Positions 25,284-43,086 of a DNA stretch of 44,794 nt are shown here, piece by piece. Source of the stretch: an uncultured Phycisphaera sp. GTDB taxonomy: Bacteria > Planctomycetota > Phycisphaerae > Phycisphaerales > SM1A02. The stretch's first letter is position 1. Each line of letters begins with the position of its first letter. A model generated the notes under the pieces. The model was given only the letters and a program-made list of their open reading frames with translations, was not told where the DNA came from and did no database searches. The stretch spans positions 1-44,794 of the forward strand of contig CALFOM010000135.1 in NCBI GenBank assembly GCA_937919685.1, written 5' to 3'. The translations under genes were made by a program, and so were the position numbers.

Positions 25284-26678
25284 TCAGAGAAGGGACTCGC
25301 GGATCACTACTCCGGGAGCACGCTGGAGCATCCCGAACAAGCCACGGACCGCGGCACCCCGCCCGCGGCCGATCTCGATCAGCGACGATCGAAACGCCTC
25401 GACGATCCAGTCGACATCCTCGTTGGAGATCAAGAGGGGCGGAACGACTTTGATCACACCGCTTCCCTTGCTCGTCGACTGCGTGAGCAATCGATGTTCA
25501 GTCAACAAACGCATCACCAGAGCCTGCGCCACGAGCGTCGGTGTCCGTCGGGCAAGGCCCGGCATGTCGATCGAGAGCGCCGACGGATCAATCTCGATGC
25601 CGATCATGAGACCGCGGCCGCGCACCTCGCGGATCCCGGGTACTTCGGCGGCCACGCGTCGCAGCCCACGAATCAGGGCGTCGCCGGTCTCTGCCGCACG
25701 CTCGACCAGACGCTCCTCACGAAGGACGTGGAGCACCGCCAGACCAGTGGTCATCGCCAAGGGATTCTCACGGAAGGTCGAACTGTGAACCACTGAACGT
25801 TCCACCGAATCAAACACCCGGTCGAAGATCGGCGCCCGCCCAAGGATCGCGCCGACCGGGACGCTACCCGCCGACAGCCCCTTGGAGAGACAGACGATGT
25901 CCGCTTCGACACCATCCACCCTGCTCGCGAGCGCCGCTCCGGCTCGGCCAAGTCCGGTCTGCACCTCGTCGGCGACGAGAAGCGTTCCGGTGTCACGGCA
26001 GATCTCGGCAACTTCCTTGAGCACCCCCGGCGGATGAGGAATCACACCCTTGCCCTGGATCGGCTCGAAGAAGAACGCCGCCACGGATTCATCGCCGAGC
26101 GCGTCTCGAAGGCGGTCGAGATCGCAGAACGGAACTTCTCGACATCCGGGGATCAGTGGTTCGAATCCTCGCCGCAGCCAGTCTGCGCCATTGAGCGATA
26201 GAGCGCCGAGCGTGAGCCCGTGAAACGCGTTCGACCAATATGCGAAGCCAGGCCGACCCGTCGCGGCGCGGGCGATCTTCATCGCGGCCTCGACCGATTC
26301 TGCACCACTGTTGACGAAGAAGACCCGGTCGTGCGGCCGATCGACGAATCGCTTCAAGGACTCGGCCAGCGCGACTGCAAGCGGCGGAGTCTCGAACTGC
26401 ACCAAGGCCGGGGGCGCGATCCGAAGGGCCTGCTCGAGCGCATCGCGGACCACGGGATGGTCGCGTCCGAGGGAAAGGCTCGCGAAGCCGCCGATCGCGT
26501 CGAGGTAACGATTCCCCTCCTCGTCGAAGAGATACGGTCCTTCGCCGCGGACGAAACGCTTTTCGAAACCGACCAGACGAAGCAGATCGTGGAAGCGTGG
26601 GTTCAGATGTCGTGCGTAGGCGGGGCCGGAATCTGGGCCGAACGAATCAATAATCGCCTGCAAGTCGAATGACGCCAT
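25284..26678 (-). CDS. Class III PLP-dependent aminotransferase (ornithine/acetylornithine-type)
   Basis: GNRYLDAIGGFASLSLGRDHP; VFFVNSGAESVEAAMKIARAATGR; LLVADEVQTGLGRAG; CLSKGLSAGSVPVGAIL (PLP lysine region). Confidence 0.92.
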   Translation of the reverse strand: MASFDLQAIIDSFGPDSGPAYARHLNPRFHDLLRLVGFEKRFVRGEGPYLFDEEGNRYLDAIGGFASLSLGRDHPVVRDALEQALRIAPPALVQFETPPLAVALAESLKRFVDRPHDRVFFVNSGAESVEAAMKIARAATGRPGFAYWSNAFHGLTLGALSLNGADWLRRGFEPLIPGCREVPFCDLDRLRDALGDESVAAFFFEPIQGKGVIPHPPGVLKEVAEICRDTGTLLVADEVQTGLGRAGAALASRVDGVEADIVCLSKGLSAGSVPVGAILGRAPIFDRVFDSVERSVVHSSTFRENPLAMTTGLAVLHVLREERLVERAAETGDALIRGLRRVAAEVPGIREVRGRGLMIGIEIDPSALSIDMPGLARRTPTLVAQALVMRLLTEHRLLTQSTSKGSGVIKVVPPLLISNEDVDWIVEAFRSSLIEIGRGRGAAVRGLFGMLQRAPGVVIRESLL

Positions 26679-26729
26679 GCGTACCCTTGCTTCCTCCTCC
26701 GCTCGCCGGCAATCCGACGACGGCGGGAA

Positions 26730-27521
26730 TCAGCCATCCGAGGCTCGTTTCAACGAACGAAGCACGCCCGCGTGGTCGGTATCGTTGTTGTAGAAAATGA
26801 AGGCCGAGATGTCGCGGCTGTCGGTGAACGCGACCGGACCCACCCCCTTGGCCAGAAACATGTACTTCCAGGCGCTGACGGATGCCGGTCCGATGCTGCC
26901 GTCGTAGCTGATCTTGATCAGTCTCGTGTCATAGGTTCCGTGCGGGACCTTCACCTTCCAACCGCCCAGATCGGTCCAGGTGCACTTCACCTGACCCGAA
27001 TAACTGACATCGGTGGGCGAATCCAGATCGCAGATGCTGATCTTGATCTCTTCACTCACTTCGTTCTTCGCGGTCGTCGAGGCATGGACGATCGGCTCCG
27101 GCGGAGAGAGGCGGATGATGAAGGCGTTCGGCTTTGAAACATCGGTGGCCGCGACGAGCCCGTTCTCTCCATCCTGCTTCAGGAATCTGGTGGTCCCGGA
27201 TGGGAGTTCGATGGCCCAGCCCTTGATCCCGGCGTCCAACTTGCTACCCGGAGCACGATCAATCTTCGTCAGAACATGCTTCAGTGTCTTGTCCTTATTC
27301 GTCGGATGATCGAAAACGAAAACCGTCGACTCGAGCGGAAGCCAGTCCGCGGCATTCGTAATCTTCGGAACCGATGATTCCGGACCAAGCACCACGCCGG
27401 GAAGGCTTGCGGCGATCCGTCTGGCGTCGTCCTTGGGGATCGTCTTCAGCGGATCATCCGCCGTCGCGCCGGGAGCGGAGAGAAAGATGGACAAGATCAG
27501 AGTGTGAATAAAAGTCATCAC
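26730..27521 (-). CDS. Hypothetical secreted protein
   Basis: 263 aa ORF with signal peptide MMTFIHTLILSIFLSAPGATA; no recognised domain. Confidence 0.65.
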   Translation of the reverse strand: MMTFIHTLILSIFLSAPGATADDPLKTIPKDDARRIAASLPGVVLGPESSVPKITNAADWLPLESTVFVFDHPTNKDKTLKHVLTKIDRAPGSKLDAGIKGWAIELPSGTTRFLKQDGENGLVAATDVSKPNAFIIRLSPPEPIVHASTTAKNEVSEEIKISICDLDSPTDVSYSGQVKCTWTDLGGWKVKVPHGTYDTRLIKISYDGSIGPASVSAWKYMFLAKGVGPVAFTDSRDISAFIFYNNDTDHAGVLRSLKRASDG

Positions 27522-27692
27522 TTCATGTTAGCGGTTCTCGGCAAAATCTTGCACTCGGGGACGGACCTCAAGACAAAATCAGAACTCCGGGCGTTCCCGG
27601 CGTAAGATCCGGCCTTGGCGCCGACAGGTTCGGCCTCGAAAGTCTTGCCCTCACCGCTGCACGTGCGGACCTCGGAGCCTCGCGGACCACGC

Positions 27693-28826
27693 ATGACGAA
27701 AGCGGATCACATGGCGACGGACGAAAGTCCCGCGGACGGCACGCTGAGCATCGCGGTGCTCATTCCGACCTACAACAACCGGTCGACCCTCGACTCTGTG
27801 CTTCGCGGCGCCGCCGAATCGGGGCTCCCGGTGGTGGTAATCGACGATGCCAGCACCGATGGCAGCCAGATCGTGCTCGAAGAACTAGAGACCGAAGGCA
27901 TCGTGCATCGACGGTTCCGAGCTCCCCGGAACCTTGGCAAAGCCGGCGCCCTCCGCGCGGGCTTTGAACTCTGCCGACAGAGTGGCTTCACGCATGCCAT
28001 CACTTGCGATTCGGACGCACAACATGACACCGATCTGATCCCACTGTTCGCCGAAGCGGCCCGTGCCGACGCCGGTTCGTATCTCTTGGGATGCCGTTTT
28101 CCACTTCATCCCGACCAACCTCGCCGCAATCTCCTCGGCCGAATCTTGAGCAACGTGGCCATCCGCGCGCATTCCGGCGTGACCATCGGCGATGCCGCCT
28201 GCGGATTCCGATGCTGGCCGCTGGAACTTCCCGCGACGGTGCGCGGGCTTTCCGGTCGGTATGCGTGGGAGGAAGAGATGATTACCAGAGCAGCTTGGGC
28301 CGGCTGGCCGATCACTTCGATTGACGTCCCCGCGATCTACCATCCGCCCTCAACCCGGGTGAGTCACTATCGCTTCGGAAGAGACTGGTCCGAAGGCATC
28401 GGCATTTACCTTCTTCTCCTTCTTGAAGCAACGCTTCCGCGGTTCCCCCGATCTGGGGGCGGGCGGCGCCCGTTCCGGGACGGGTTTCTGCGGCGTTGCG
28501 ACCGGCTTCTCTCACCCGGCGCCCTTCGAGGCCGGCGGCCGGAAGCCGCGACGGAACGCTGGTTCCAGCTCATCGCCCTCGCAGCGGGCGGACTCACCGC
28601 CACCATCGCCCCCCCGTCGATGGTGACGCTCGCCGCGATCGGCTGGATCGGCTGGCGATGGCATGCTGGCTTCGCCGCCATGGCGATCGCCGCATTTCCC
28701 ACCCTGCTCGAACTGGAGGCGTTCGACGGCAAGGCGGAATGGATCGTTCTGGTCGCCGTCGCCAGCCTGCTCGCGGGCTTGATCCGAAGATCCGCGTCGC
28801 TGCGCAGTCTTGCACCAGAAGGCTGA
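27693..28826 (+). CDS. Family 2 glycosyltransferase (polyprenyl-phosphate mannosyltransferase-like) with C-terminal hydrophobic segments
   Basis: LSIAVLIPTYNNRSTLDSVLRGAAESGLPVVVIDDASTDGSQIVLEEL; HAITCDSDAQHDTDLIP; GDAACGFRCWPLE. ORF opens at 27615; start chosen at MTKADHMATDESPADG and uncertain. Confidence 0.88.
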   Translation: MTKADHMATDESPADGTLSIAVLIPTYNNRSTLDSVLRGAAESGLPVVVIDDASTDGSQIVLEELETEGIVHRRFRAPRNLGKAGALRAGFELCRQSGFTHAITCDSDAQHDTDLIPLFAEAARADAGSYLLGCRFPLHPDQPRRNLLGRILSNVAIRAHSGVTIGDAACGFRCWPLELPATVRGLSGRYAWEEEMITRAAWAGWPITSIDVPAIYHPPSTRVSHYRFGRDWSEGIGIYLLLLLEATLPRFPRSGGGRRPFRDGFLRRCDRLLSPGALRGRRPEAATERWFQLIALAAGGLTATIAPPSMVTLAAIGWIGWRWHAGFAAMAIAAFPTLLELEAFDGKAEWIVLVAVASLLAGLIRRSASLRSLAPEG

Positions 28827-28828
28827 AT

Positions 28829-30313
28829 TCAGATGTCGGCGGATCGGCCGACCAATTCGATCAGTCGGCCCCGGAGGAGTTTTCCGGTCAGGGTGCGCGG
28901 CAACGAATCCACGAAGTCGATGACCCTCGGTCGCTGATGTGGCGCGAGGTCACGGGCCGCGAGGGCTCCGAGTTCACGGCGAATCAAAGACTCTCGTTCC
29001 GGATCGCCCGAGCAATCCACCACCACGACCGCACGAACCCTGGTCACCGTCGCGGTCAGCGGTAGCGGGATGACCGCCACTTCTCGGATCGCCGGATGCG
29101 CCGCGAGTACCTCTTCGACCTCGGTGGGATTCACCTTCAAACCGCCGACATCGAACTGTATCTTGGCCCTTCCGGTGATCTCGACCCGCCCCTCCGCATG
29201 CACCCGTCCGAGATCGCCGGTACGGAAGTGCCCTTCGAGACGTCGCCCGGGATCGACCTCAGCATCTCGAGCCGCCAGATAGCCTGCGAACATCGCATCG
29301 CTTCGCACCACGAGTTCGCCCGAACCCTCGGCGGTCACCACGGGCACCTCTCCACCATCCTCATCGACTACGGCCGCCACTCGAATCGAGACACCGGCGA
29401 CCGCCGCATCCAAGCCGCCGATTCCGTAGGTGATCGTCCCGAGCTCCGTGGCCCCATAGAGATTGCCGGTGGGACAACCCCACGCTTCGGCGAACGCCTC
29501 TCGAACCACTTCTGGAAGCGAGCTTCCTGCGGAATAGGCCAGTCGAAGCCTCGAATCCAGCCGCCCTTCTCGCGCTGCGGCTTCGAGCGTCACTGGAACA
29601 CCGGGAAACACGGTCACGCCATTGGCCAGCGCCTCGACGCCTCCTGCCAGATCAAATCCCGGGCGAAAGCGGACTGAAGCCCCAGCCCGCATCGGCGCCA
29701 GCACGCCGTGCTCGATGCCGTACGCGTGCTGCATCGGAAGCGTCGCGAGCACCTCGTCGTCATCGACCAGTTCGATGACCCGCAACAAGGTCTCCGAAAC
29801 TCGGTCCAGCGCGGCTCCCGTCCGCAAGGCCACCGCCGGCCGACCGGTCGTTCCCGAACTCCGCAAGAGCAGGGAACCGCTTGAGCCTCGGGCAAGCACC
29901 CCGGCGTCGTTTCCACGCGGGATACCAATGCCGTCCATCACCTGAAGATGAACCGTCGCCGGCGACTCCGCCCATCCCACCGACGCATCCGTCTCGATGA
30001 CCGCGTCGACTCGATGAGCATCATGAAGCGTCGCACGATCCCGCGCGGTGGTCTCGATGCCGATGGGAAGCATCCGCCTTCCCGAACCGAGAATCGCGAG
30101 CAACCCCGCCCAGTAGCCCGCACCACTCGGCCCATGGAGCATCACCACGCCATCTTCGGGGACGGTGGCGTCGAGCCGCCGGGCGGCCTGGGCCGCCGCC
30201 GCGAGAATCTCGCCACGGCTGGTCTTCCGTCCCGACGTGAGATCGTGAACCGCCACCCGATCGGGATCGCGATCCACCGATGCGATGAAATCTCGGATCA
30301 GCTCGGCTGCCAC
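28829..30313 (-). CDS. AMP-dependent synthetase/ligase (aryl/acyl-activating enzyme)
   Basis: LLLRSSGTTGRPAVAL; LYGATELGTITYG; GHFRTGDLGRVHAEGRVEITGRAKIQFDVGGLKVNPTEVEEVL; LPRTLTGKLLRG. Likely GTG start near 30313, overlapping the upstream stop at 30298. Confidence 0.9.
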   Translation of the reverse strand: MAAELIRDFIASVDRDPDRVAVHDLTSGRKTSRGEILAAAAQAARRLDATVPEDGVVMLHGPSGAGYWAGLLAILGSGRRMLPIGIETTARDRATLHDAHRVDAVIETDASVGWAESPATVHLQVMDGIGIPRGNDAGVLARGSSGSLLLRSSGTTGRPAVALRTGAALDRVSETLLRVIELVDDDEVLATLPMQHAYGIEHGVLAPMRAGASVRFRPGFDLAGGVEALANGVTVFPGVPVTLEAAAREGRLDSRLRLAYSAGSSLPEVVREAFAEAWGCPTGNLYGATELGTITYGIGGLDAAVAGVSIRVAAVVDEDGGEVPVVTAEGSGELVVRSDAMFAGYLAARDAEVDPGRRLEGHFRTGDLGRVHAEGRVEITGRAKIQFDVGGLKVNPTEVEEVLAAHPAIREVAVIPLPLTATVTRVRAVVVVDCSGDPERESLIRRELGALAARDLAPHQRPRVIDFVDSLPRTLTGKLLRGRLIELVGRSADI

Positions 30314-31686
30314 GAAGGCCGCCCGCGATGCCGTCTCTTGATGCCGCGAACCACGCCGGATTGCGGCGAAGGCAGCGTGATACCACCGGACTGCAGCAGG
30401 GAGTGTGGACGGATCCACTCCACGACCTTCCGGTGCCGGTTCGCCTCCTTGAGCCACCGCATGAGTTCCCATCGCCAGCGGACTCGAAACGGGACGCCTT
30501 CGAAGATCTCCCCGGCGAGCATGTTGACCACCGCCGCATCGATTTCGAGCCGGCCTTGGCCGCTCACCAGAAGCTCCCGAAACGAATGATCGTAGAAGTT
30601 TGAGATGAGCGATAGAAAGCTCGAACGCAGTCGCTTGACGCGCTTTCCGTACGCCTTCGATGCGGCGGACGCCGCCATCCGGCCCGCATCTACGTCGATG
30701 ATCCGTTGCGCCGATTGCATGCCCCCGTCGATTCCCAGACTCACGCCGGTTGACCAAACGGGGTCAATAAAGGCCGCGGCATCTCCGACCAAGAACCAAC
30801 CGTCACCGGCGTAGGGCTCGCAGGTGTAGGAGAAGTCACCCGTGACTTGATTCGTCTTGGGTCCGACCGCATCGCGGAGCCGATGCTTGACCAACGGGCA
30901 GTTCTCGATGCACCATTCCAGTCTTTGGTTCGCAGGCACCGGAATAAGTCTCGCCAGCTTGTCATCAAGGACCACACCCACACTGGTCGTCTTCTCGTCA
31001 ATGGGAATCATCCAGAACCAACCTTCGCGGCACATCGCAAGCGTGGCGAAGCCTTGCCGATCACCGCTCGGTCGATCGACGCCTTCGAAGTGCTCGAAGT
31101 ACGAAACGTTTTGATATCCCTCAAGGAGCTTTCGGGTACCAAAATGCCGACCCAAGACACAAGCCTGACCGCTGGCATCGATCAGCCAGTTGGCCTGAAT
31201 CGGCCCGGATTCGAGCTGCAAGCGGACGTCACCCCGAGCTAGATGATCTATGGAAACCACGGATTCGCCGAATCGATAGGTGGCACCTGCCTCCATCGCA
31301 ACGTCTGCGAGCATCTGATCAAAGAGCGATCGCCGGACGTTGAAGGTCTCCTTGATGGTGTCGCCAAGCATCCGGTCAAACGGAATCGCCGCGGGGTCGC
31401 GACGGCCGTCCCCAAATGAGATTTCCAAACCCAACTTGACCACATGGGGAAGTTCGCGGACTCGATCCATGAGCCCGAGTCTCTCCATCACTCGATTGGT
31501 GTGGGGGAGCATCGATTCGCCGATTCGGAATCGCGGAAAGGTCTCCTTGTCGATCACCAGGACTTTCTTGCCCGCACGAGCCAGTTCGAGCGCCGCAATG
31601 CTCCCGGACGGCCCTGCGCCGATGACCACGACGTCCCAGACGTCCAAGGACTCTCCCGATGCAATCGCTTCAGAGTGGGCAATCAT
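30298..31686 (-). CDS. FAD-dependent oxidoreductase of the tryptophan-halogenase-like family
   Basis: VVVIGAGPSGSIAALELARAGKKVLVIDKETFPRFRIGESMLPHTN; CREGWFWMIPIDEKTTSVGVV (WxWxIP motif); GDGWFLVGDAAAFIDPVWSTGVSLG. Confidence 0.88.
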   Translation of the reverse strand: MIAHSEAIASGESLDVWDVVVIGAGPSGSIAALELARAGKKVLVIDKETFPRFRIGESMLPHTNRVMERLGLMDRVRELPHVVKLGLEISFGDGRRDPAAIPFDRMLGDTIKETFNVRRSLFDQMLADVAMEAGATYRFGESVVSIDHLARGDVRLQLESGPIQANWLIDASGQACVLGRHFGTRKLLEGYQNVSYFEHFEGVDRPSGDRQGFATLAMCREGWFWMIPIDEKTTSVGVVLDDKLARLIPVPANQRLEWCIENCPLVKHRLRDAVGPKTNQVTGDFSYTCEPYAGDGWFLVGDAAAFIDPVWSTGVSLGIDGGMQSAQRIIDVDAGRMAASAASKAYGKRVKRLRSSFLSLISNFYDHSFRELLVSGQGRLEIDAAVVNMLAGEIFEGVPFRVRWRWELMRWLKEANRHRKVVEWIRPHSLLQSGGITLPSPQSGVVRGIKRRHRGRPSWQPS

Positions 31687-32669
31687 GCGTCGCGCTCCGC
31701 GGCGAGCCCGGCACCTTCGATCTCGACCAGCAGTTCCGGCCGGCAGAGTTTCTGAACTCTGAATTCGATCTCGACCTGATGACCCGGCCACCGACGTTCG
31801 ACCGCCGCCAGAACTTTTCCACGCTGCGTGGCATCCAGAAGGTAGACCAGCCAATGATCAAGATGGACCGGGGTGAATCCCGCCCGGCATGCATCGACCA
31901 CCATCGCCAGATTGTCGAGCGTCTCCTCGAGTTGGCGATCGAAGTCCTCGACATGCGCCGAGTCTTCTCCGACCACGCTCGCGGTGCCACTCACCAGGAT
32001 GTACTCACCGGCGTCCGACTGAATCGTCGCGGCACGAACGAACGCGGGCGGAAGGTCCCCGAACTTCTCGGAGTAGTCGACGGGAAGCACCTGCCGAGGA
32101 TTGTCGACCGGGCGAGGCAAGCCATCGCCGTGGAGAAGATGGAGAACCAGATCGTCGCCGGCGTGACCGACGCCTGAAGCCACCGGAAACCATTCGGGGC
32201 GTTCATACACCTCCTGAAACGACTGAAATCGCCCGGCATTGAACGCCATGTACCGGTTTCGGGGAACGGCGGCCTCCAGATCATCTTCCACGGCATCATT
32301 GATGCGAGGCACGTAGTTCCAGATGCGAAGAAGGTGACCGTGCGGAATGCCAAGCAGCAGCCGGCGGTACGCCTGATGAGTCGCCCGCTCGAAATCCTGT
32401 CCCTGCATCAAGCATGCCGCGGGTACCACGACCGTCCGAATCGTCCAGTCTCCGGACTTTCGTTCGAAAGCGCGGATCCCGGACTCGCATTCGAGGGCCA
32501 GATCAACCGCATCATCTCCGATGAACACGCTCGTCCAGGCCGGCAGATCTGCGGCCGATCCATCGGCGGCCCAGTGCTTCGACAGATCGAAATCTCCCTC
32601 CAAGACACGTTCGCCAGTGGAGGAAAGCTTTTTTCCCTGCTGCATGTTTTCGCGGACACTCAAACTCAT
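31683..32669 (-). CDS. Chorismatase family protein (FkbO/Hyg5/XanB2-like; predicted to form a hydroxybenzoate)
   Basis: HLLRIWNYVPRINDA...RYMAFNAGRFQSF; PVASGVGHAGDDLVLHLL; FVRAATIQSDAGEYILVSGTASVVGEDSAHV; LDNLAMVV; C-terminal LLVEIEG. Matches the remembered FkbO pattern (WNYV..IN, SATA..G..T, LDNM, LLVEIEG). Confidence 0.88.
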   Translation of the reverse strand: MSLSVRENMQQGKKLSSTGERVLEGDFDLSKHWAADGSAADLPAWTSVFIGDDAVDLALECESGIRAFERKSGDWTIRTVVVPAACLMQGQDFERATHQAYRRLLLGIPHGHLLRIWNYVPRINDAVEDDLEAAVPRNRYMAFNAGRFQSFQEVYERPEWFPVASGVGHAGDDLVLHLLHGDGLPRPVDNPRQVLPVDYSEKFGDLPPAFVRAATIQSDAGEYILVSGTASVVGEDSAHVEDFDRQLEETLDNLAMVVDACRAGFTPVHLDHWLVYLLDATQRGKVLAAVERRWPGHQVEIEFRVQKLCRPELLVEIEGAGLAAERDA

Positions 32670-32683
32670 GGTTCAGATGATAC

Positions 32684-34918
32684 TCACCGGATCTCAAGAG
32701 AACCCGCACCACCGGCCGAATCCGGCCATGCGATCACGGATGCCTCGCCCGCCCGGATCGCATCGGCGGCGGCGAGCATTGGCCCGACCGAACCACGCTC
32801 CACTCCTGCGGCGGATGGGCAAGGCCTCGCTCCCGCTCTCGAAAATCGTCGTCTCCGCATCGCCAGATCGAACACCCGACCAGCAAGACTCTCGGCGGGC
32901 GGTCCCACCACCGGCTGTTTCGGAACTCCCGGAATTGCTCTAGCCAGTGCCTCGACGCTTGCCAGAGTTCCTCCCGACGCCGGCCAGATCACCGCGGAAC
33001 CGGCGAAGACGCCTCGAGCCGAACCGCCTCGATCGCGAAGCGAAGACGCCCGCTCGAGCACGAATGCCACCGCTCCCTCCGCACTCGGATGCTCGCAACC
33101 ATGTCCGAGGTCATGGAGGATCTTCCGAATCATCGGATGCGTCTCTTCTGCCGCCACCACCACGGCCCGTTCTGACTGCCCGGTCTGAAGGTGCCGCCGT
33201 GCGAGATGCATGGCCTCGATACCCGCGATCACGGTCCCACCGACGGAAATCGTGAGCCCTTCGAGGCCGAGCCCCAGGCTCAACTGCGCGCTCCCGATGT
33301 TCGGCACGCTCTCCGCGAAGTAAAGGGGGTTCCCAGCGCCCAAACCGTCGCGAATCAACTCCTGATAGAAGTCGAGCGTGTACTCCGGCGCCCCGAATCT
33401 CGTCCCGACGAATCCCGCACAGTCCCTGATCTCCTGGTCATCAAGTCCGGCGTCTCGCACCGCGAGGATCCCGGCCGCTCTAACCAAACGCGAAAAACGG
33501 GCGAGGCGACGCACCGCCCGTGGGTCATCGAGGCCTTCCAACGCGTCGTCGTCGAGACCGATTTCACCAGGTCGAATCGGCACTGCGTCGGCTGGGGGGA
33601 CAAGTACTCCGCAGCCGGAGATCAGAACCACTTCTCTTTCCGTCGACGAGATTCTGGCCTCGCGACCAGGGAAATGCGGGGTGATTGGATGCGGTGATTC
33701 CGCGGCCTCCACCAAAATTGCAGCGTCGGCACCGCCGAATCCCAGCGAAACAACCGCGGCTCGCTCCACGATCCCGATTCGAAAACCGTCATCCAGAAGA
33801 TCCAGATTCGGGAAGGAAGCACGGTCGGTTTCCGCATTCGCCGCGGCGGGTATCTGCGACTGCTCCATCGCCGCAACGATCACCGCGAGCTCCACCGCTC
33901 CGGCGGCACCCAGGGTGTGTCCGATGCGACTCTTCAGCGCGGTCACCGGAATGTTCGAGAGATCGTCGCCGAACGCGACCGACAACGCGGCATACTCGGC
34001 GGCATCGTTTGCCGGCGTTGATGTCGCGTGAGCCGCGATGAGATCGGGAAGCGACCGCGAGGGCTCCAGCGCGCGAGTCGCCTCGCGAATCGCTCGAGCG
34101 GCACCTCGCCCATCGGGGGCGGGCTGGGTCAGATGATGCGCATCGCTTGCTCCACCCCAACCAAGGATGCGGGCGACGGGTCGTGCTCCACGAGCCTTCG
34201 CATCAGCCGCTCGTTCGACGATGAACACGCCATAGCCCTCACCTAATCGCATGCCGGTTCGATCCGCGGTGAACGGACGAAGGGGACCCTCGCTCACCAG
34301 CCGAAGACAGGTAAAACCGGCGAACGCAAACTCACTGATCGGGTCGTACGACACCGCCAGCAGGAGATCCGCCTCATCGGCCAGGATCGCCGTCGCCGCA
34401 ATCGCCAGCGTGCTGACCCCGGAGGCGCAGGCCGCAGAGATTGTCGAACCGCCAAGTGGGAGACCCGTCTCGGATAACACGGAGCGGGTAAGGGTCGCGG
34501 TGGTGGCCTTCGACAGCTCCTCGAGCCGCCCGGTGCGGAGACCCTCTCCAAGATGCCTCATCCCTCCGAGGGTCGTCCCGAAGACCGTCTCGAACCGCCT
34601 TCCTTCGGATTGCATCCGTTCAATCGTCGGGCGATCAAGATTGGCCTCTGCCAGCGCCTGACGGATGGAGCGGCTCAAGAGCCTCTCGGCCCGATCCGGG
34701 ACGGCCCCAACCTCAGGCTGGATTTCGGCGACCTGTGCTGCCCTGATCTTCGCGGCGGGCGTTCCCGGCGACTCCGCCAGGAAGACGCCCTCGATCGCTG
34801 GCGCATCATCGATGGCGGTCCGACCTTCGAGCATGGACGCGAGAATTTCGGATCGATGCTCGCCGAGTGAACAACTTGCCGCCGCGGCCGTGAGCACCAG
34901 GCCATCCTCCGACCTCAC
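32684..34918 (-). CDS. Fused beta-ketoacyl synthase plus degenerate chain-length-factor-like ketosynthase
   Basis: First domain: GSTISAACASGVSTLA (Cys), AHATSTPANDAAE (His), KSRIGHTLGAAG (His). Second domain: NIGSAQLSLGLGLEGLTISVGGTVIAGIEAMHLARRHL with Gly at the Cys position and no recognisable HGTGT or GH. Confidence 0.88.
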   Translation of the reverse strand: MRSEDGLVLTAAAASCSLGEHRSEILASMLEGRTAIDDAPAIEGVFLAESPGTPAAKIRAAQVAEIQPEVGAVPDRAERLLSRSIRQALAEANLDRPTIERMQSEGRRFETVFGTTLGGMRHLGEGLRTGRLEELSKATTATLTRSVLSETGLPLGGSTISAACASGVSTLAIAATAILADEADLLLAVSYDPISEFAFAGFTCLRLVSEGPLRPFTADRTGMRLGEGYGVFIVERAADAKARGARPVARILGWGGASDAHHLTQPAPDGRGAARAIREATRALEPSRSLPDLIAAHATSTPANDAAEYAALSVAFGDDLSNIPVTALKSRIGHTLGAAGAVELAVIVAAMEQSQIPAAANAETDRASFPNLDLLDDGFRIGIVERAAVVSLGFGGADAAILVEAAESPHPITPHFPGREARISSTEREVVLISGCGVLVPPADAVPIRPGEIGLDDDALEGLDDPRAVRRLARFSRLVRAAGILAVRDAGLDDQEIRDCAGFVGTRFGAPEYTLDFYQELIRDGLGAGNPLYFAESVPNIGSAQLSLGLGLEGLTISVGGTVIAGIEAMHLARRHLQTGQSERAVVVAAEETHPMIRKILHDLGHGCEHPSAEGAVAFVLERASSLRDRGGSARGVFAGSAVIWPASGGTLASVEALARAIPGVPKQPVVGPPAESLAGRVFDLAMRRRRFSRAGARPCPSAAGVERGSVGPMLAAADAIRAGEASVIAWPDSAGGAGSLEIR

Positions 34919-35367
34919 GATGCCTCATCCTCGCCGCCGGACCGCAGGCTCACCCCCACCGAGCCGCTCGCGACCCGGACCCCGTCGACCAATGCGTCGA
35001 AATCGAACCGATGGATCGAATCGAACTGCCCCATAGACGTCACTTCAAGCATGATGGTCGCCGGCGGTTTGACGGGACGTCGGAACCTCGCGTCACTCAG
35101 TACGAGCATGCCGTCTCCGTTGCCCCCCACTCGGCGGTGTGCGACCACGCCCGCGAGTTGCGCCGCCGCCTCGGTGATCAGGACCCCGGGAACCAGCGGG
35201 CGGCCCGGAAAATGCCCCCGAAGAAAGTCCTCGTCGCCACGCACGACCCACGCACCGCGGGCCGCGTCGTCGCTCAGCGCGTCGATTCGATCAAGGAATC
35301 GGAACGGTGGTTCGTGCGGCAGATTCCGTAATGCCGACGCGAACGGATCGTTGACCGCCTCGGTCAC
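34915..35367 (-). CDS. FabZ/FabA-like 3-hydroxyacyl-ACP dehydratase
   Basis: LPHEPPFRFLDRI; FLRGHFPGRPLVPGVLITEAAAQLAG (His and Glu of the FabZ hot-dog active site present). Confidence 0.92.
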   Translation of the reverse strand: MTEAVNDPFASALRNLPHEPPFRFLDRIDALSDDAARGAWVVRGDEDFLRGHFPGRPLVPGVLITEAAAQLAGVVAHRRVGGNGDGMLVLSDARFRRPVKPPATIMLEVTSMGQFDSIHRFDFDALVDGVRVASGSVGVSLRSGGEDEAS

Positions 35368-35627
35368 GCGTCGGTCCGGATCGATTCGACGAACCGAACG
35401 AAGTCACCGATGGTGCTCATGGTGTCTTTGCCGAGCTTCTCGTTAGGGATCTTGATTCCTAGCCTTTTCTCAGTACCCGTGACCACCATGAGAAGATCCA
35501 GCGAGTCGAGACCCAGTTCGTCACCGACCAACGGCGTATCCGGACCGAGTTGGATCATCCCAAGCTTCAAATCCGTCCGGAGAACTTCACAGACAACTTC
35601 CTGGAGATCCGCGGTGTCATTGCTCAT
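35364..35627 (-). CDS. Acyl carrier protein
   Basis: MSNDTADLQEVVCEVLRTDLKLGMIQLGPDTPLVGDELGLDSLDLLMVVTGTEKRLGIKIPNEKLGKDTMSTIGDFVRFV; DSLDLL phosphopantetheine site. ORF opens at 35681; start set at 35627. Confidence 0.93.
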   Translation of the reverse strand: MSNDTADLQEVVCEVLRTDLKLGMIQLGPDTPLVGDELGLDSLDLLMVVTGTEKRLGIKIPNEKLGKDTMSTIGDFVRFVESIRTDA

Positions 35628-35684
35628 TTCTGCCTCCATGACGGCGTGCGTGCCGCCTTCTTGATCTGCTCGACCGAGCATGGT

Positions 35685-35713
35685 ATTTGATCGGACTCAT
35701 CAATCGCCGTCAA
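35685..35713 (-). promoter_or_regulatory. Candidate sigma70-like promoter for the ACP-dehydratase-KS/CLF segment
   Basis: Minus strand TTGACG-N17-TCAAAT about 60 nt upstream of the ACP start, in one of the few intergenic gaps of the cluster. Confidence 0.3.
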
Positions 35714-35791
35714 CGAAACCCGATTCACGCCTTCTCCCGATTCCAGCCGAGCCCTTCGACTCGAAGGTGGAATCAGCGATTCGAATATCGC

Positions 35792-37066
35792 TCAATGCCA
35801 GCGTGATATCGCCACTCGAGCGCCGACCAGACAGACCACGGTGGTCCCGAAGATCAGGGCGAGCGCCGGACTGATCCGGCCAAGCATCGCGCCCAGAGTG
35901 TCGTCCGACGAGGTGTACCAGAGTACCTGTTGCATGGCCTTGATGGCACGGGCGTTGAAGGCCCAATCTCCGATCGCCTGCAGTCCCGGTGGCATCAGGA
36001 AGATTGGAATCATGCTCCCGCCGACGGCGCTCAGAATCAGCACCGTGATGGTCCCGATGGTGGTCTGCTGCCTTCGAGTCTTCGCGATGCCGGTGATGAG
36101 CAGCCCGAGGCCGGCGGCTGCGGCGGCGACCATCGGCACGAGGATCAAGAGCGCGATCACCTGACGGAAGGAGAAGAACCGGACGCCGAAGACGATCGCC
36201 GCCCAGGCCAGCATCACCGCGATCTGAACCGATCCGACCATGATGGCGAACACAAAGCGATTGAGGAGAACCGCCCAGGGACCGATTCCCGAGGCTCGCA
36301 TGCGATCAAGCACCCCACGTTCCTGATCTTCGAGCAACCATCCCGTGGTCGACAAGGCGCTGAAGAGCATGAACATCACGCCAATCGCCGCGGTGTAATA
36401 GGTGACGAGGCTCGGCCCCCCCTGTCCGACGGTGACCGGGCTCCCCTCGATCGGCACCTGAGTCGAATCGGCGAGGCGGGCGATCATTGGGGACACCTTT
36501 GAATCCGAACCAGACTGGAACGATTGAAGGGAATCCGCGAGCTTCCGCTGCGGGGCCGTGAGTTGGCCGGTGATCATCTCCAGCACACGGATCTCGCGGC
36601 CCAGCATCTGAGGGGCCAGGCCCTTCCAGGTCGCGGCTGCCAGCACGCCTTTCGCGAAATCCGGGGCGATCGGGTTCGCGGGATCGAATCGCACCAGCAG
36701 CGGCGGAATCTCCGCCGTCGGATCGGCCAGCGCCGCCCCGAATCCCAACGGAATGATCACCGCCGCAGGAAAAGCGCCGCTGGCGACCTGGCGATCCGCC
36801 GCGGCGACGTCTGCGCCTTCGATCATCTCGAGGTTGACCCGGTTGCTCGATTCTTTCACCGCCGCCTCGAGCGCCTTGGATGCCGGACTTCGGTCGAGAT
36901 CCAGCAGGGCGATGCGAACTTGGTTGTCACCGTTGCGACCGAACCCCTGGAAGACGCTCGCGAAGATCGAGAGGAAAATGATCGGCACCATCGCGTAAAG
37001 AAGTAGGCCGAGCCGATCTCGGTGCAGCGTGATCCACGCGATCCGGAGCAATGCGAGACGCCTCAT
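35792..37066 (-). CDS. ABC-2 type transporter permease
   Basis: N-terminal TM, extracytoplasmic domain, then TTGWLLEDQERGVLDRMRASGIGPWAVLLNRFVFAIMVG with multiple TM segments; ABC2_membrane_3-like. Confidence 0.9.
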   Translation of the reverse strand: MRRLALLRIAWITLHRDRLGLLLYAMVPIIFLSIFASVFQGFGRNGDNQVRIALLDLDRSPASKALEAAVKESSNRVNLEMIEGADVAAADRQVASGAFPAAVIIPLGFGAALADPTAEIPPLLVRFDPANPIAPDFAKGVLAAATWKGLAPQMLGREIRVLEMITGQLTAPQRKLADSLQSFQSGSDSKVSPMIARLADSTQVPIEGSPVTVGQGGPSLVTYYTAAIGVMFMLFSALSTTGWLLEDQERGVLDRMRASGIGPWAVLLNRFVFAIMVGSVQIAVMLAWAAIVFGVRFFSFRQVIALLILVPMVAAAAAGLGLLITGIAKTRRQQTTIGTITVLILSAVGGSMIPIFLMPPGLQAIGDWAFNARAIKAMQQVLWYTSSDDTLGAMLGRISPALALIFGTTVVCLVGARVAISRWH

Positions 37067-38004
37067 GCCGCGCTCCGATCATCACCAGCGCCCGCTATCG
37101 CGGATTCTCCACCCCGCCAGACGGGATGCACGTTGAGCCACTGCTCCGGCGTGGCGCGGATTCTTGCCTCGACAAGTTCCACCCAGCGCCGCATCGCGGG
37201 GTTCGATCCCGGGTCGCGGCGAAGGTCTCCCTCCACCTCGATGGGCGCCTCCATCCGCATGGCGAGCCTTCCATCGGGTAACCACCAGTTGAAGACTGGA
37301 ATCAGCCTGCTCCCCGTGGCCTGAGCCAACTTGAACGGTCCGACCGGAATCTCCATGTGCCGCCCGAACATGGGCATGAAGGTTCCAGTCTGGCCTGGCT
37401 GAACTCGATCGCCGAGCAGCGCAACGACCTCGCCCCGATCCAGCACATCCCGGAGTCTCATCCACGCGGCCAGCCCGTCGTCGACCGCATGGCCAGTGAC
37501 CCCGAGCAGACCTCGGGCGCGAGCCCGGATCGTCTCCAACGTCTTGATTCGATCTCGGCGATAGAGCACGTGCACCGGCGCGTGGCGACTCATGAAAGCC
37601 GCCGCGGGTTCGAATTCGCCCATGTGAATGGAGAGGAGGATCAGGCCACGCCGCTTCCGGTCCTGGAAGTACTCGCGGAAGTCGGTGAGGCCCTCCACCG
37701 TGTCGATGCGCTTCAACAACGTCTCGGGATTCAGTTGCGAGGCGACCACCAGGCCTTCCATATATCGCTGCATGTATTCAAGCACCCCGAGACCATAGGC
37801 CTCAAGGCGACCCTCGTCAGCCTCTCGCCCCAGAATGATCCGGCCGTTCTCCCGAAGCGCCTCCCGCCAGAATGGTGCGCGACGCCAGGTCTGCCGCACC
37901 ATCAGCGGTCTGATTCGATGCATGAAACCTGGAACTCGAGCGTACCCATGGAGCAACGAGGAGACCGCCAGTCGTTCGGCTTTCGAGACGCCTGCGTCGT
38001 TCAT
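37063..38004 (-). CDS. LpxL/HtrB-like lipid acyltransferase
   Basis: RGLILLSIHMGEFEPAAAFMSRHAPVHVLYRR (HxxxxE); GEVVALLGDRVQPGQTGTFMPMFGRHMEIPVGPFKLAQATGSRLIPVF; ATPEQWLNVHPVW. Start 38004 gives an ATGA overlap with the upstream gene. Confidence 0.9.
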   Translation of the reverse strand: MNDAGVSKAERLAVSSLLHGYARVPGFMHRIRPLMVRQTWRRAPFWREALRENGRIILGREADEGRLEAYGLGVLEYMQRYMEGLVVASQLNPETLLKRIDTVEGLTDFREYFQDRKRRGLILLSIHMGEFEPAAAFMSRHAPVHVLYRRDRIKTLETIRARARGLLGVTGHAVDDGLAAWMRLRDVLDRGEVVALLGDRVQPGQTGTFMPMFGRHMEIPVGPFKLAQATGSRLIPVFNWWLPDGRLAMRMEAPIEVEGDLRRDPGSNPAMRRWVELVEARIRATPEQWLNVHPVWRGGESAIAGAGDDRSAA

Positions 38005-38756
38005 CCCACATGCTCCACAGACATTTTCTCGGCCACGCAAACCTCGCCCGTTGAAGGCGACGTCGACAATTCCTCGATCGCAACCGCGAGCCGCCTGGTG
38101 AAGGCCGTCGCCGTTTCGTCGAGAGCTGCCCTCATGGGATCCCCTGCGATTATCCGCAGCGTCGTGGCCCGGGGCCACCAGACTCCACGGGGCAGGATGT
38201 ACTCGGTCCCTTCGATTCGGACTGGTATCACCGGCAAGTCGTTCCGCCGAGCAAGCTCCGCGGCCCCATGCCGAAAGCGGCCCGGTCGGCCATCACGACT
38301 CCGAGTCGCTTCCGGAAAGATCACCAAGCTCCATCCGGCGGCGATCATCGCATCGATCCGATCGAGTTCGGAGTACTCACCGCCGACGCGATCGATCAGC
38401 ATGACGTTCATGGCGCTTCGGATGAACCAGATCACGCCCCTGCGGAAGAGCCGTTCGAACCAAGGCTGGCCGGATTCGGCCTTGAAGAAGTCGAGGCCAC
38501 CGACCGTCGCCGTCCGATTCCGACGACTCGCCGGTATCGACATGAACAAGCAAGGCGTATCGATGAGGCTGTGGTGATTGGCAACCACGATCGATTGCGG
38601 CATCTCCTCGATGCACTCAAATCCCGACCGTCGAATCGGAACCCTGCAGACGAACCGGCCGGCGAGGTGAAGAAATGACAACACGCTTCGAGCCACCACC
38701 CGCGAAAGGAGTGGCATCGGGATGCGAAACTCGGCGATGGCCTGGGATGCCGTCAT
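38001..38756 (-). CDS. 1-acylglycerol-3-phosphate acyltransferase-like (PlsC family)
   Basis: IVVANHHSLIDTPCLFM (NHxxxxD); FPEATRSRDGRPGRFRHGAAELARRNDLPVIPVRIEGTEY. Confidence 0.92.
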   Translation of the reverse strand: MTASQAIAEFRIPMPLLSRVVARSVLSFLHLAGRFVCRVPIRRSGFECIEEMPQSIVVANHHSLIDTPCLFMSIPASRRNRTATVGGLDFFKAESGQPWFERLFRRGVIWFIRSAMNVMLIDRVGGEYSELDRIDAMIAAGWSLVIFPEATRSRDGRPGRFRHGAAELARRNDLPVIPVRIEGTEYILPRGVWWPRATTLRIIAGDPMRAALDETATAFTRRLAVAIEELSTSPSTGEVCVAEKMSVEHVG

Positions 38757-39433
38757 CGTCCGCCCTCGGCATGGGTCTTGTCGGACATCGCGATCTGGAT
38801 CTGGCCACAATTTTCGTCGGGTACCGAGCCCTCGCTCCGACTCGAAAGCTTCCGAATCTTGATGGAGGTCGTCGTCGAGGGCAGGACGAGTTCGATCGCA
38901 GCATCATCGAACCGCGGGGGGCCGAAGAGCACGGTGGCGTTGTTGGAGAATCCGTAGGGTTCGCTCGGAATGCCGAAGGCCCCTCGACCGAGATCGTCGT
39001 TCTCATCGACATCGATGAAGACCGAGATGGCGGTTGGTCGCGCGGGCAGACCTTCGAACTCAACGATCGTCAGCGGCGGAGTGACCGAGACAGACCTCGC
39101 CGCGGCCCATCCCGTCGCTTTGAGCCAGCCATCCCGCGACTGGACGACCGCGATCTTCATCTGCTTGCCTGCATCGTTCGGAGTCAGGATCTCGATACGC
39201 AGCGTCGTCGTTCCGACGAATTCCGCGTCGGCTTCGTCTGCGGAACTCGCGGCGACCGGTGGAGCCTGACACCCGCCAGCGAAGCAGGACGCCGCGACTA
39301 CCACCGCAAATGGCGCTGAAACCACGAACCGGCGTCGACTTGAACGCGCCGAAAGCTTGGTTCGCAATTCACTCCACGGGGACTTGGGCACGAAATTCTC
39401 CAAGCAGGCCACCGACGTATCGATATCTGACAT
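38753..39433 (-). CDS. DUF2141-family putative lipoprotein
   Basis: VVAASCFAGGC lipobox; SVFIDVDENDDLGRGAFGIPSEPYGFSNNATVLFGPPRFDDAAIELVL. Start uncertain: ATG 39433 overlaps the methyltransferase; a TTG at 39367 with GGAG upstream is an alternative. Confidence 0.8.
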   Translation of the reverse strand: MSDIDTSVACLENFVPKSPWSELRTKLSARSSRRRFVVSAPFAVVVAASCFAGGCQAPPVAASSADEADAEFVGTTTLRIEILTPNDAGKQMKIAVVQSRDGWLKATGWAAARSVSVTPPLTIVEFEGLPARPTAISVFIDVDENDDLGRGAFGIPSEPYGFSNNATVLFGPPRFDDAAIELVLPSTTTSIKIRKLSSRSEGSVPDENCGQIQIAMSDKTHAEGGR

Positions 39434-40094
39434 CGATGAATCCGGAATTCTCGAGCAACTCGACCACGAGTTCCGGCGAGTCGAAAGAGGATATCGAGTC
39501 CCAAAAATGCCGCATCAGATCACCGGCGGCCCGGGAGCCGCAGACCAGTGAGAAGAAGCGAGCCCCCAGTCCTTGAACCATGAATCGAAGGATCCGCCGC
39601 TTTGCGGGCGACCGAGGCACCACCATTTCGAGCAGTACCAAACGCCCTCCTGACCGAAGCACGCGGCGAGCCTCGGCGAACGCCTCCGCAAGGTCAACCG
39701 CATATCGAATCGCGTAGCCGCTCACCATGGCATCCATCGAGGCGTCCTCGACGGGAATGGAACCGAACGAGCCTGCGCGGACATCGCGAACCCCGGCTCT
39801 GGAAGCCATCGCCCGCATTTCCGGCGACGGATCGACGGCAACGATCGAAGGTGAATCGGGGAGGTACCGCTGCGCTGCCACCGCCAGCGAACCCGTCCCG
39901 CTCCCCACATCCACCAAGGTCCCGTCGGACGGGAGATCGAGCGAGAGGATGGTCCGGCGGCGATACCAGTTGCTGGTTCCAAAGCTGATCAGGTTGTTGA
40001 GCCGGTCATACCGCTTTGCGGCACGGTCGTAGAGACGCGTGATCTCCGGATCGACGCCAACCGACGATTCCATCACGACCGTGGCGTCCTTCAC
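39369..40094 (-). CDS. UbiE/MenG-like class I SAM-dependent methyltransferase
   Basis: ITRLYDRAAKRYDRLNNLISFGTSNWYRRRTI; LVDVGSGTGSLAVAA; MVSGYAIRYAVDLAEAFAEARRVLRSGGRLVLLEMVVP; FWDSISSFDSPELVVELLENSGF. GTG start overlaps the upstream stop. Confidence 0.92.
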   Translation of the reverse strand: MKDATVVMESSVGVDPEITRLYDRAAKRYDRLNNLISFGTSNWYRRRTILSLDLPSDGTLVDVGSGTGSLAVAAQRYLPDSPSIVAVDPSPEMRAMASRAGVRDVRAGSFGSIPVEDASMDAMVSGYAIRYAVDLAEAFAEARRVLRSGGRLVLLEMVVPRSPAKRRILRFMVQGLGARFFSLVCGSRAAGDLMRHFWDSISSFDSPELVVELLENSGFIDVRYRYVGGLLGEFRAQVPVE

Positions 40095-41059
40095 TCCCGA
40101 AGATCCCGACCGGTCAACGCCAAGAAGACCTCTTCCAGACTCGCTTCATGAAGGCGAACGCCCTCGATGCCTCCTGGAATCGATTCGAGAGTGGTGAGTG
40201 CGGCGTGCAATTCGTCACCGAGACCATCAAGTGGAACGCGGATTGTTCTTCCGTTCCAGGCGCCGATCGGCGGCGTAAACTCTGGGCCGACCGGACTCAC
40301 CGGACGAGCCTCGAGTTCAAAAGACGAGACGAGATGTTCTCGAGCAAGCGAGGCGGTATCGCCTCTCGCCACCAGATTCCCATGATCGATGATCGCCACG
40401 GAATCGACCAGAGTCTCCGCCTCCTCGATCAAATGCGTGGCATGAAGAATCGTGGCCCCGTTCGCCTGCAGCTCCTCGATCATCCTCCAGATCGCCGCCC
40501 GCGCCTGAGGATCGACGCCCTCGGTCGGTTCGTCGAGCAAAAGAAGGCGTGGACGATGAAGGATGCTCACCGCGAGGTTTAGCCGTCGCTGCATTCCCCC
40601 TGAATAATGCCGGACTTGATCGTCCGCCCGATCTTCGAGTTGACTGAAGGCGAGCGCCCACCCGACCCGATCGGCACGATCCCGACGGTCTACCCCGAGG
40701 AGATCCGAGTAGTTCAAGAGATGTTCTCGAGCGGTCATGGTCTCGTGCAACGCGATCCGCTGTGGCACAAAACCAAGGTCTCCCGCCGTCGGCCTTCCGC
40801 CGCCGAACGCGGAGATTGTTCCGGAGTCCTCCCGAAGCAGCCCGGCGATGCACCGCATCAACGTCGTCTTACCCGCGCCATTAGGCCCGAGCAGCGCGGT
40901 CCATTCGCCTCGGCCGAGTTCGAGATCCACTCCTGCCAGCGCGGTCACCTTCCCGAAGGTCTTCCGAACACCCTGCACCCGCAGCGCAGGTGGCGGCGGT
41001 GGCGGCGACGGCGTGGCTGAAGGATTTGCTCCAGGTGTGATTTTTACGGCTCCAGGCAT
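40091..41059 (-). CDS. ABC transporter ATP-binding protein
   Basis: LLGPNGAGKTTLMRC (Walker A), YSGGMQRRLNLAVS (signature), LLLLDEPTEGVDP (Walker B). ORF opens at 41590, but that extension lies inside the NagB/PIG-L coding sequence; start set at MPGAVKITP (41059). Confidence 0.93.
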   Translation of the reverse strand: MPGAVKITPGANPSATPSPPPPPPALRVQGVRKTFGKVTALAGVDLELGRGEWTALLGPNGAGKTTLMRCIAGLLREDSGTISAFGGGRPTAGDLGFVPQRIALHETMTAREHLLNYSDLLGVDRRDRADRVGWALAFSQLEDRADDQVRHYSGGMQRRLNLAVSILHRPRLLLLDEPTEGVDPQARAAIWRMIEELQANGATILHATHLIEEAETLVDSVAIIDHGNLVARGDTASLAREHLVSSFELEARPVSPVGPEFTPPIGAWNGRTIRVPLDGLGDELHAALTTLESIPGGIEGVRLHEASLEEVFLALTGRDLRE

Positions 41060-43086
41060 CAGTCGAGTCGTCGCCCGTCCCACTTCACGAAAGCCTCGAC
41101 CGCTTCGTATTCGGCGAATCCTAGTTGATCGAGATGCTTTGCGGTGCCACGGTTTCGTTGTTCCGCTCGTTGCCAGAACTCCCGATCGTCGGTACCCGGG
41201 AAGAGCGCCTTGTCCTTCTGGGACTGGTGCTTGAAGATCGCGGTGATCTTCCGCTTGAGTTCGCCGGGAGAGACCGGCACCGCCATGTCGAACTGCTCGA
41301 TCGCCCATTCCTGCCAGGCGCCGCGATAGAGCCAGAGGACGCATTCTGCGACCCAAGGTTCCTTTGCGACGGCCTCCATTCCCTCGAACACCGCCGCGAG
41401 GCAGGTTCGATGGGTTCCGTGCGGATCGGAAAGGTCGCCTGCCGCGTAGATCTGGTGCGGCTTCACGGTGCGAAGCAAGTCGGTGATGATCGCCACGTCC
41501 GCGTCGCCCAGTGGCTTCTTGGTGACTCGGCCCGTCTCGTAGAAGGGAAGATCCAGAAAATGGATATTCTCGTCCGCCACGCCACAACACCGACCGGCAT
41601 CCGTCGCCTCGATCCGGCGAATCAAACCTTTGATCTGCTGGACTTCCGGGATATCCACCTCGCCCGGGCTCTTCTTTCGCAGAACGTCCGTGACCCGACG
41701 CTCCAGCGCCTCGGCCTCGGCGGCGCCGAATCCGAAGGTCGCGTTGAAGTGCGCCACGAAATCGGCGAAGCGAAGCGCTTCACTGTCGAACACTGCGATG
41801 TTTCCAGACGTCTGGTACGCCACATGCACTTCATGGCCCTGGTCGACGAGCCTGATGAGCGTGCCTCCCATCGAAATCACATCGTCATCGGGATGGGGGC
41901 TGAAGACGAGGATCCGCTTTGGAAAGACCTCGTTGGTCGGCCGGTCGATGTCGCCGGACCGCTTCCGTCCGGCGGGTTTGCCACCGGGCCATCCGGTGAT
42001 CGAACGCTGCACCGAGCGAAAGACCTCGAGATTCAGGTCGTAGACACTGCCACGCTCGGCAAGAAGCTCCTGCAGACCGTTCTCGTTGTAATCCTCGGCC
42101 TCGAGTTTGAGAATCGCCTTGGAGACTCGGCCAGCCAGCCAGATCACAGCCTTCTTGACCAGTTGCTCGGACCAGAGGACCTGACCTACGGACCATGGCA
42201 TTGCAAGTCTCGAGAGCGATGCCGCCGCACCTTCATCGAGATACACGGTCGCATCCGGATGCCGCTGCAGGAACGAGGCCGCGATGGTCGCGGTGATCTC
42301 CCCTTCGATAGCGCTCGCCGCCACTTTCGCCTTCGCTTCACCAAAGGCCATGAGAACGACTCTTCGAGCATCGAGGATCGAGCCAACGCCCATCGTCATC
42401 GCCCTCGTGGGAACGTTTTCCTCACCGAAGAAGTCGCTCGCCGCATCTTTCAGCGTGACTCGGTCCAGATGAATCAGGCGCGTTCGACTGTCCACTCCTG
42501 ATCCCGGCTCGTTGAATCCGATGTGACCGGTCCGGCCAAGCCCGAGCAGTTGCAGATCGATGCCGCCGGCGTCGACGATCGCCTGTTCATAGGAGGCGCA
42601 GTAGGACCGGATCTCCTCAAAGGCGATGGTGCCGTCAGGAACGTGGGTGTTGGCGAGGTCGATGTCGATGTGATCGAACAGGTGTTCGTTCATGAACCGG
42701 CGATAACTCTGAAGCGCCTCCGGCTCCATCGGCCAGTACTCATCGAGATTGAAGGTCACGACGTTGGCGAAGGAAAGCCCCTGCTCCCGGTGCATCCGCA
42801 CCAGTTCGCCGTAGACCTGCGTCGGCGTCGAACCTGTCGCGAGCCCGAGTACACAGCCTTCACCGGCCGCCTGGCGGTCGCGAATGAGCGTCGCGATTTC
42901 CTGGGCGATCGCGATGCTGACATCCGCTGCTCGCTCGAAGACGACGGTTTCGATCCGCTCGACCCCGAAATGGGCCGGTACGTCGCAGGTCTGGCCGTTG
43001 CCGATATACCGGCCGCCGCCTCCCGTTTTATCGCTCGATGGATTTCGTCCAAGTTCGGCTGAGGAATTCGGTTCAATAGCGGCCAT
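41059..43086 (-). CDS. Glucosamine-6-phosphate deaminase-like (NagB) domain fused to PIG-L/LmbE-type deacetylase domain
   Basis: GCVLGLATGSTPTQVYGELVRMHREQGLSFANVVTFNLDEYWPM; LLGLGRTGHIGFNEPGSGVDSRTR; C-terminal ILVFSPHPDDDVISMGGTLIRLV. Start may be ATG 43086 or 43104. Confidence 0.92.
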   Translation of the reverse strand: MAAIEPNSSAELGRNPSSDKTGGGGRYIGNGQTCDVPAHFGVERIETVVFERAADVSIAIAQEIATLIRDRQAAGEGCVLGLATGSTPTQVYGELVRMHREQGLSFANVVTFNLDEYWPMEPEALQSYRRFMNEHLFDHIDIDLANTHVPDGTIAFEEIRSYCASYEQAIVDAGGIDLQLLGLGRTGHIGFNEPGSGVDSRTRLIHLDRVTLKDAASDFFGEENVPTRAMTMGVGSILDARRVVLMAFGEAKAKVAASAIEGEITATIAASFLQRHPDATVYLDEGAAASLSRLAMPWSVGQVLWSEQLVKKAVIWLAGRVSKAILKLEAEDYNENGLQELLAERGSVYDLNLEVFRSVQRSITGWPGGKPAGRKRSGDIDRPTNEVFPKRILVFSPHPDDDVISMGGTLIRLVDQGHEVHVAYQTSGNIAVFDSEALRFADFVAHFNATFGFGAAEAEALERRVTDVLRKKSPGEVDIPEVQQIKGLIRRIEATDAGRCCGVADENIHFLDLPFYETGRVTKKPLGDADVAIITDLLRTVKPHQIYAAGDLSDPHGTHRTCLAAVFEGMEAVAKEPWVAECVLWLYRGAWQEWAIEQFDMAVPVSPGELKRKITAIFKHQSQKDKALFPGTDDREFWQRAEQRNRGTAKHLDQLGFAEYEAVEAFVKWDGRRLD

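Follow-up and report, generated by a model that had tools for sequence, protein, structure and literature searches.

In an uncultured Phycisphaera sp., a ketosynthase (KS) and a CLF-like partner are carried by one polypeptide of 744 residues. This protein is likely to be a self-contained KS-CLF, folded as a pseudo-dimer within one chain and serving a type II-like, iterative aryl-polyene pathway of the xanthomonadin/arcuflavin sort. The length of the chains built in type II polyketide and aryl polyene pathways is set by KS/CLF pairs, which are hard to study because their subunits need co-expression and may mis-pair. The window considered here, 44,794 nucleotides long, is a whole contig (C135) of an assembly of 3.45 Mb in 254 contigs. 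Table 1 collects the features of the protein and of the surrounding genes.

Table 1. Features of the KS-CLF protein and of its gene cluster (window positions)
Feature	Position	Strand	Basis or remark
KS-CLF ORF, 744 aa	32684-34918	minus	GTG start at 34918; stop 32684-32686; uninterrupted
KS domain, residues 1-405	33704..34918	minus	Pfam, PDB FabF matches, sequence, AlphaFold model
Inter-domain linker, ~residues 406-430, roughly 25 aa	33629..33703	minus	Model, family profiles
CLF-like domain, residues 431-744, without catalytic Cys or His	32687..33628	minus	Profiles, model, tree
Cys164, KS catalytic nucleophile	34427..34429	minus	Sequence; Cys in 45/45 relatives
His297 (AHATSTPAND)	34028..34030	minus	Sequence, family alignment
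His334 (KSRIGHTLGAAG)	33917..33919	minus	Sequence, family alignment
Val563, counterpart of KS Cys	33230..33232	minus	Profile, PDB-anchored and family alignments
Class III aminotransferase	25284..26678	minus	Pfam PF00202
Family 2 glycosyltransferase	27615..28826	plus	Pfam PF00535; position conserved in relatives
AMP-dependent acyl ligase	28829..30757	minus	Pfam PF00501; start probably internal to ORF
Flavin halogenase-like, GAGPSG and GWFWMIP	30298..31854	minus	PF04820; true start probably internal
FkbO/Hyg5-family chorismatase, Gly and Cys of Hyg5 (3-hydroxybenzoate) type	31683..32669	minus	Alignment
FabZ-type dehydratase	34915..35367	minus	Pfam PF07977; NCBIfam fabZ-like below cut-off
Acyl carrier protein (ACP), LGLDSLD attachment site	35364..35681	minus	Pfam PF00550
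ABC-2 type transporter permease	35792..37066	minus	Pfam PF12698
LpxL/HtrB-type acyltransferase	37063..38178	minus	Pfam PF03279
PlsC-type acyltransferase	38001..38810	minus	Pfam PF01553
UbiE-like methyltransferase	39369..40094	minus	Pfam PF01209
ABC transporter ATPase, domain from ~residue 200 of ORF	40091..41590	minus	Pfam PF00005

The two halves of the protein

The GTG start of the open frame and the stop of the upstream dehydratase gene share 4 nt (GTGA). Pfam and PDB matches identify the first half as a FabF-type ketosynthase. Pfam places both the N- and the C-terminal KS domains there (PF00109 at 8-240, PF02801 at 249-362). The catalytic Cys codon and the two His motifs that an earlier note on this DNA had assigned to the first domain are indeed found in it. 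Cys164, His297, His334 and Lys329 do not vary among the 45 usable fusion proteins and, as read from the sequence, the Cys164-His297-His334 triad of the KS half is intact.

The second half was proposed to be a KS fold deprived of its Cys, and this holds. With a 342-aa piece covering it, Pfam returned a shortened PF00109 match (2.4e-12, residues 63-197) and did not find the KS C-terminal domain. A profile-profile alignment of the two halves (E 1.5e-11) puts Cys164 opposite Val563, and in a PDB-anchored alignment the Val563 column is that of the FabF Cys. Across 45 relatives this column contains Arg (35), Val (5), Ala (4) or Leu (1), and never Cys. The Gly first taken for the residue at the Cys position, Gly561, lies two residues away from the true equivalent and is invariant across the family. 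The reading by eye of SV in place of the KS GH motif stands only in part: there is no His in this place, but profiles do not reliably align the region. The domain is also somewhat shorter than the 340 aa initially given, with about 314 aa (431-744). Many of its residues are invariant, including Arg470-Arg471 and the motif FAExVPN. The column of Glu707, a residue that may occupy the place of the KS Lys, contains Glu in 44 sequences and Asp in 2.

When the CLF family profile was compared with the PDB, the top sequence match was AntE, the CLF of AntD-AntE, with FabFs narrowly behind. Against the KS of the window taken as a lone sequence the same profile gave a weak match, which became significant once both halves were represented by profiles. 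With E. coli ApeC as one sequence, hhalign gave a probability of 0.5% against the CLF profile.

Conservation of the fusion

The CLF half was searched for in 181 genomes of the same family. Strong matches occur in about 38 of them, nearly all within open frames of ~700-1000 aa. A scan of GTDB species genomes further gave 53 homologous loci, nearly all in MAGs that bear the label Phycisphaerae or Planctomycetota. A few of the names given to the MAGs seem to be wrong, 'Chitinophaga pinensis' among them. KS and CLF share one open frame at 49 of these loci, and at the other 4 a contig end falls inside the gene. Split KS and CLF genes were found at none of the 53 Phycisphaerae-type loci. In plasmids, a search for close relatives returned only distant Streptomyces KS-like genes, of no use for comparison. 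One MAG, MED708 (G129), contains two near-identical copies of the cluster, L039 (C93) and L041 (C82), perhaps reflecting a strain mixture.

These counts bear on a trivial explanation, in which a sequencing or assembly error would have joined two neighbouring genes. Such an accident is conceivable in principle, since the KS and CLF genes of other planctomycetes are separate and overlap by 4 nt, and one indel would join them. However, the fused relatives come from many assemblies, share roughly 30-80% identity and have linkers that vary from 6 to 32 aa between profile envelopes, without sequence conservation. An error recurring in the same frame at 49 independent loci is ruled out, and the probability left to this explanation is negligible. 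Thus, the KS-CLF fusion is real and conserved across Phycisphaerae.

Predicted fold

An AlphaFold2 model of the whole chain, calculated from an alignment of 43 relatives, has a mean pLDDT of 91.7 and a pTM of 0.94, and the relative placement of the halves is confident. The linker is its weakest part, with low confidence at residues 421-425. The CLF half contains strands from both thiolase halves. Neither of the two findings that the earlier note named as refuting its reading was obtained: the C-terminal part is a thiolase fold, and no sequencing error is involved. In a Foldseek search of the PDB, the KS-CLF didomain of PfaC (6RIW) came first, with an alignment that extends over the whole chain (TM 0.78 on query length, 15% identity). 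The rmsd is high, 7.2 Å over 894 columns, so that packing details may differ. The next-ranked matches are lone KS chains, which cover half of the query. Taken together, the modelling supports a packing of the KS and CLF halves as an intramolecular pseudo-dimer.

Origin of the two halves

In a tree of 81 domains, the CLF halves of Phycisphaerae form one group (100/99) apart from the KSs, and the KS halves make up a second one (100/100). The sister group of the KS halves contains KSs that other Planctomycetota encode as separate genes, and the CLF genes of these bacteria also cluster together. Each kind of half falls with its free-standing counterparts, CLF with CLF and KS with KS.

This placement is relevant to the idea that the second half is a tandem duplicate of the KS that has decayed and plays no CLF role. 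Both halves are KS folds and the second lacks any catalytic residue, as a decayed copy would. Nevertheless, the tree associates the CLF halves with separate CLFs rather than with their own KS halves, the many invariant residues of the CLF half (among them those cited above) are not those of a decaying domain, and the whole chain resembles a known KS-CLF, 6RIW. On the tree and the conserved CLF residues the duplicate is rejected, with a very low probability left to it. Covalent tethering of a genuine KS/CLF pair, as initially put forward, is supported by the conserved one-chain arrangement, the tree position of the CLF half, the model and the match to 6RIW. A 1:1 ratio of KS and CLF, also put forward at the outset, follows from the tether.

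In other planctomycetes, the homologous KS and CLF genes are mostly separate. In two pairs, L130 and L136, stop and start overlap as ATGA, and the other pairs checked overlap or abut. In two genomes of another planctomycete family, L132 (1538-4183) and L137 (6192-8111), a single frame encodes both KS and CLF; these fused ORFs are nested among the separate-gene relatives. Because one-frame proteins occur inside the separate-gene sister group, the fusion probably arose at least twice, a count derived from sequence comparison with few genomes behind it.

Additional pairs were noticed. In other Planctomycetota (family f49; L128, L129, L131 and L126), two KS/CLF-like pairs are adjacent. The CLF of one pair is of full length (about 362-377 aa); the CLF-like ORF of the other is short (about 199-228 aa), of ApeC-like size. 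The source genome itself contains, outside the window (G000:C244, L140 7714-10382), a second adjacent KS-like pair, one member of which is strongly diverged.

Gene cluster and proposed pathway

The content of the cluster is the same in relatives and its order largely so: acyltransferase, KS-CLF, chorismatase, halogenase-like flavoprotein, AMP-ligase, glycosyltransferase and class III aminotransferase, with ACP, FabZ-like dehydratase and transporters nearby. The glycosyltransferase gene is the sole one of the cluster on the plus strand. The cluster thus groups genes for supply and activation of an aromatic starter (chorismatase, AMP-ligase), the ACP, the dehydratase and the fused KS and CLF, together with genes for lipid acyltransferase, glycosyltransferase and export. 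The latter are the ABC pair in the window, and LolA/MMPL in some relatives; LolA, an MMPL exporter and a polysaccharide deacetylase belong to the clusters of more distant relatives. Gly and Cys residues mark the chorismatases that produce 3-hydroxybenzoate, with Gly-164 of Nat-hyg5 as a third residue (PMC7170507). On alignment with Hyg5, the Gly of SGTAS, the Cys of LCRPELLVE and the catalytic Glu match. The halogenase motif GWxWxI is present in 33 of 40 relatives.

With the SDR ApeQ of E. coli as query, a clustered ketoreductase was found at none of 54 loci (the window and the available flanks of 53 relatives). The cluster at 25284-41590 of the window and those at L035-L087 differ in this respect from the APE, xanthomonadin and arcuflavin clusters described so far. 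The genome's best FabG adjoins a FabF on another contig. From the lack of a clustered ketoreductase and this position of FabG beside FabF, we infer that FabG is shared between this pathway and fatty-acid synthesis.

A pathway may then be envisaged. 3-Hydroxybenzoate would be made by the chorismatase and loaded onto ACP by the AMP-ligase. The chain would be moved to Cys164 of the KS half and condensed iteratively with malonyl-ACP, each double bond being produced by an outside ketoreductase, probably FabG, and by the clustered FabZ-like dehydratase. The KS-CLF chain would fold back on itself, each molecule being its own condensing unit, and the CLF half would shape the far end of the pocket, by which chain length may be controlled. 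The polyene would finally be attached to a lipid and exported, with participation of the acyltransferase, the glycosyltransferase and the ABC transporter. The halogenase may halogenate the ring. The predicted product is probably an aryl-polyene pigment.

A different product, for example an unreduced polyketide, could account for the lack of an SDR homologue of ApeQ at the 54 loci. However, the conserved FabZ-type dehydratase of the cluster requires a 3-hydroxyacyl substrate, the genome has FabG at another place, and the rest of the gene set fits the arcuflavin/xanthomonadin clusters. A product other than an aryl polyene is therefore considered unlikely.

Comparison with known systems

The closest one-chain counterpart is PfaC of the PUFA synthase, which likewise joins a KS to an inactive CLF in a single chain (6RIW; Santin et al., 2020, cited in PMC12895367). 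One-chain KS-CLFs also occur in PUFA-like hybrid pathways (PMC13291983). However, PfaC, large and type I-like, belongs to a PUFA megasynthase and has further dehydratase domains, whereas the present protein ends after the CLF, and ACP and dehydratase are encoded by separate genes.

The ApeO-ApeC system of APE pathways (E. coli CFT073 cluster) also combines a KS with a Cys-less CLF for iterative polyene building, and its clusters likewise have separate ACP, dehydratase, ligase and acyltransferase genes. Here the KS and CLF are fused, whereas ApeO and ApeC are encoded separately. ApeC, of ~240 aa, keeps mostly one of the two thiolase folds (PMC8358021); in the model, the CLF half with its ~314 aa has a fuller fold. 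APE clusters have a ketoreductase and two ACPs (PMC8358021), in contrast to the window cluster, in which no ketoreductase and one ACP gene were identified.

The arcuflavin and xanthomonadin clusters (Azoarcus sp. BH72, Xanthomonas) share with the Phycisphaerae clusters the chorismatase, halogenase, AMP-ligase, ACP, dehydratase, KS and CLF-like genes, as well as acyltransferases, glycosyltransferase, LolA, exporter, polysaccharide deacetylase and methyltransferase. All the gene kinds of the present cluster are represented in the Azoarcus arcuflavin clusters except the aminotransferase and the ABC pair (PMC3949708). There, KS (arcK) and CLF-like protein (arcJ) are on separate genes and a reductase gene is present, in contrast to the fused gene and absent reductase of the Phycisphaerae clusters. 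The class III aminotransferase (25284-26678) stands at the cluster end in many relatives, and has no obvious counterpart among the arcuflavin genes compared.

AntD-AntE (6SMO), Iga11-Iga12 (6KXD) and the actinorhodin KS/CLF (1TQY) have the same KS/CLF architecture, but are made of two subunits from two genes and lead to other products. Compared with what defines type II KS/CLFs, the triad, the Cys-less CLF and, in the model, the pseudo-dimer packing are all present; the two subunits are not.

Concluding remarks

One-chain KS-CLFs, in PUFA synthases, and the aryl polyene type of cluster are already known; a description of their combination was not found. In the open-access papers searched, we found no account of a free-standing fused KS-CLF in a type II or aryl-polyene setting, of KS and CLF joined elsewhere than in PUFA-synthase-like systems, or of an aryl-polyene-like pathway of uncultured Phycisphaerae. 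The chances appear about even for a more detailed proposal, in which a free-standing and obligately fused KS-CLF would drive a type II aryl-polyene pathway with a ketoreductase borrowed from fatty-acid synthesis, would derive from at least two fusions, in Planctomycetota, of separate genes of the ATGA-overlap kind, and would have Arg for the Cys of the CLF. If so, the fused and split relatives would form a natural set in which to measure how tethering affects chain length.

Phycisphaerae are marine and freshwater planctomycete bacteria. A natural one-chain KS-CLF in a type II setting, whose relatives within the phylum include separate-gene pairs, makes it simple to study tethering and the roles of the CLF. 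Finally, the results indicate wide occurrence of a conserved aryl-polyene-like pathway among uncultured Phycisphaerae.
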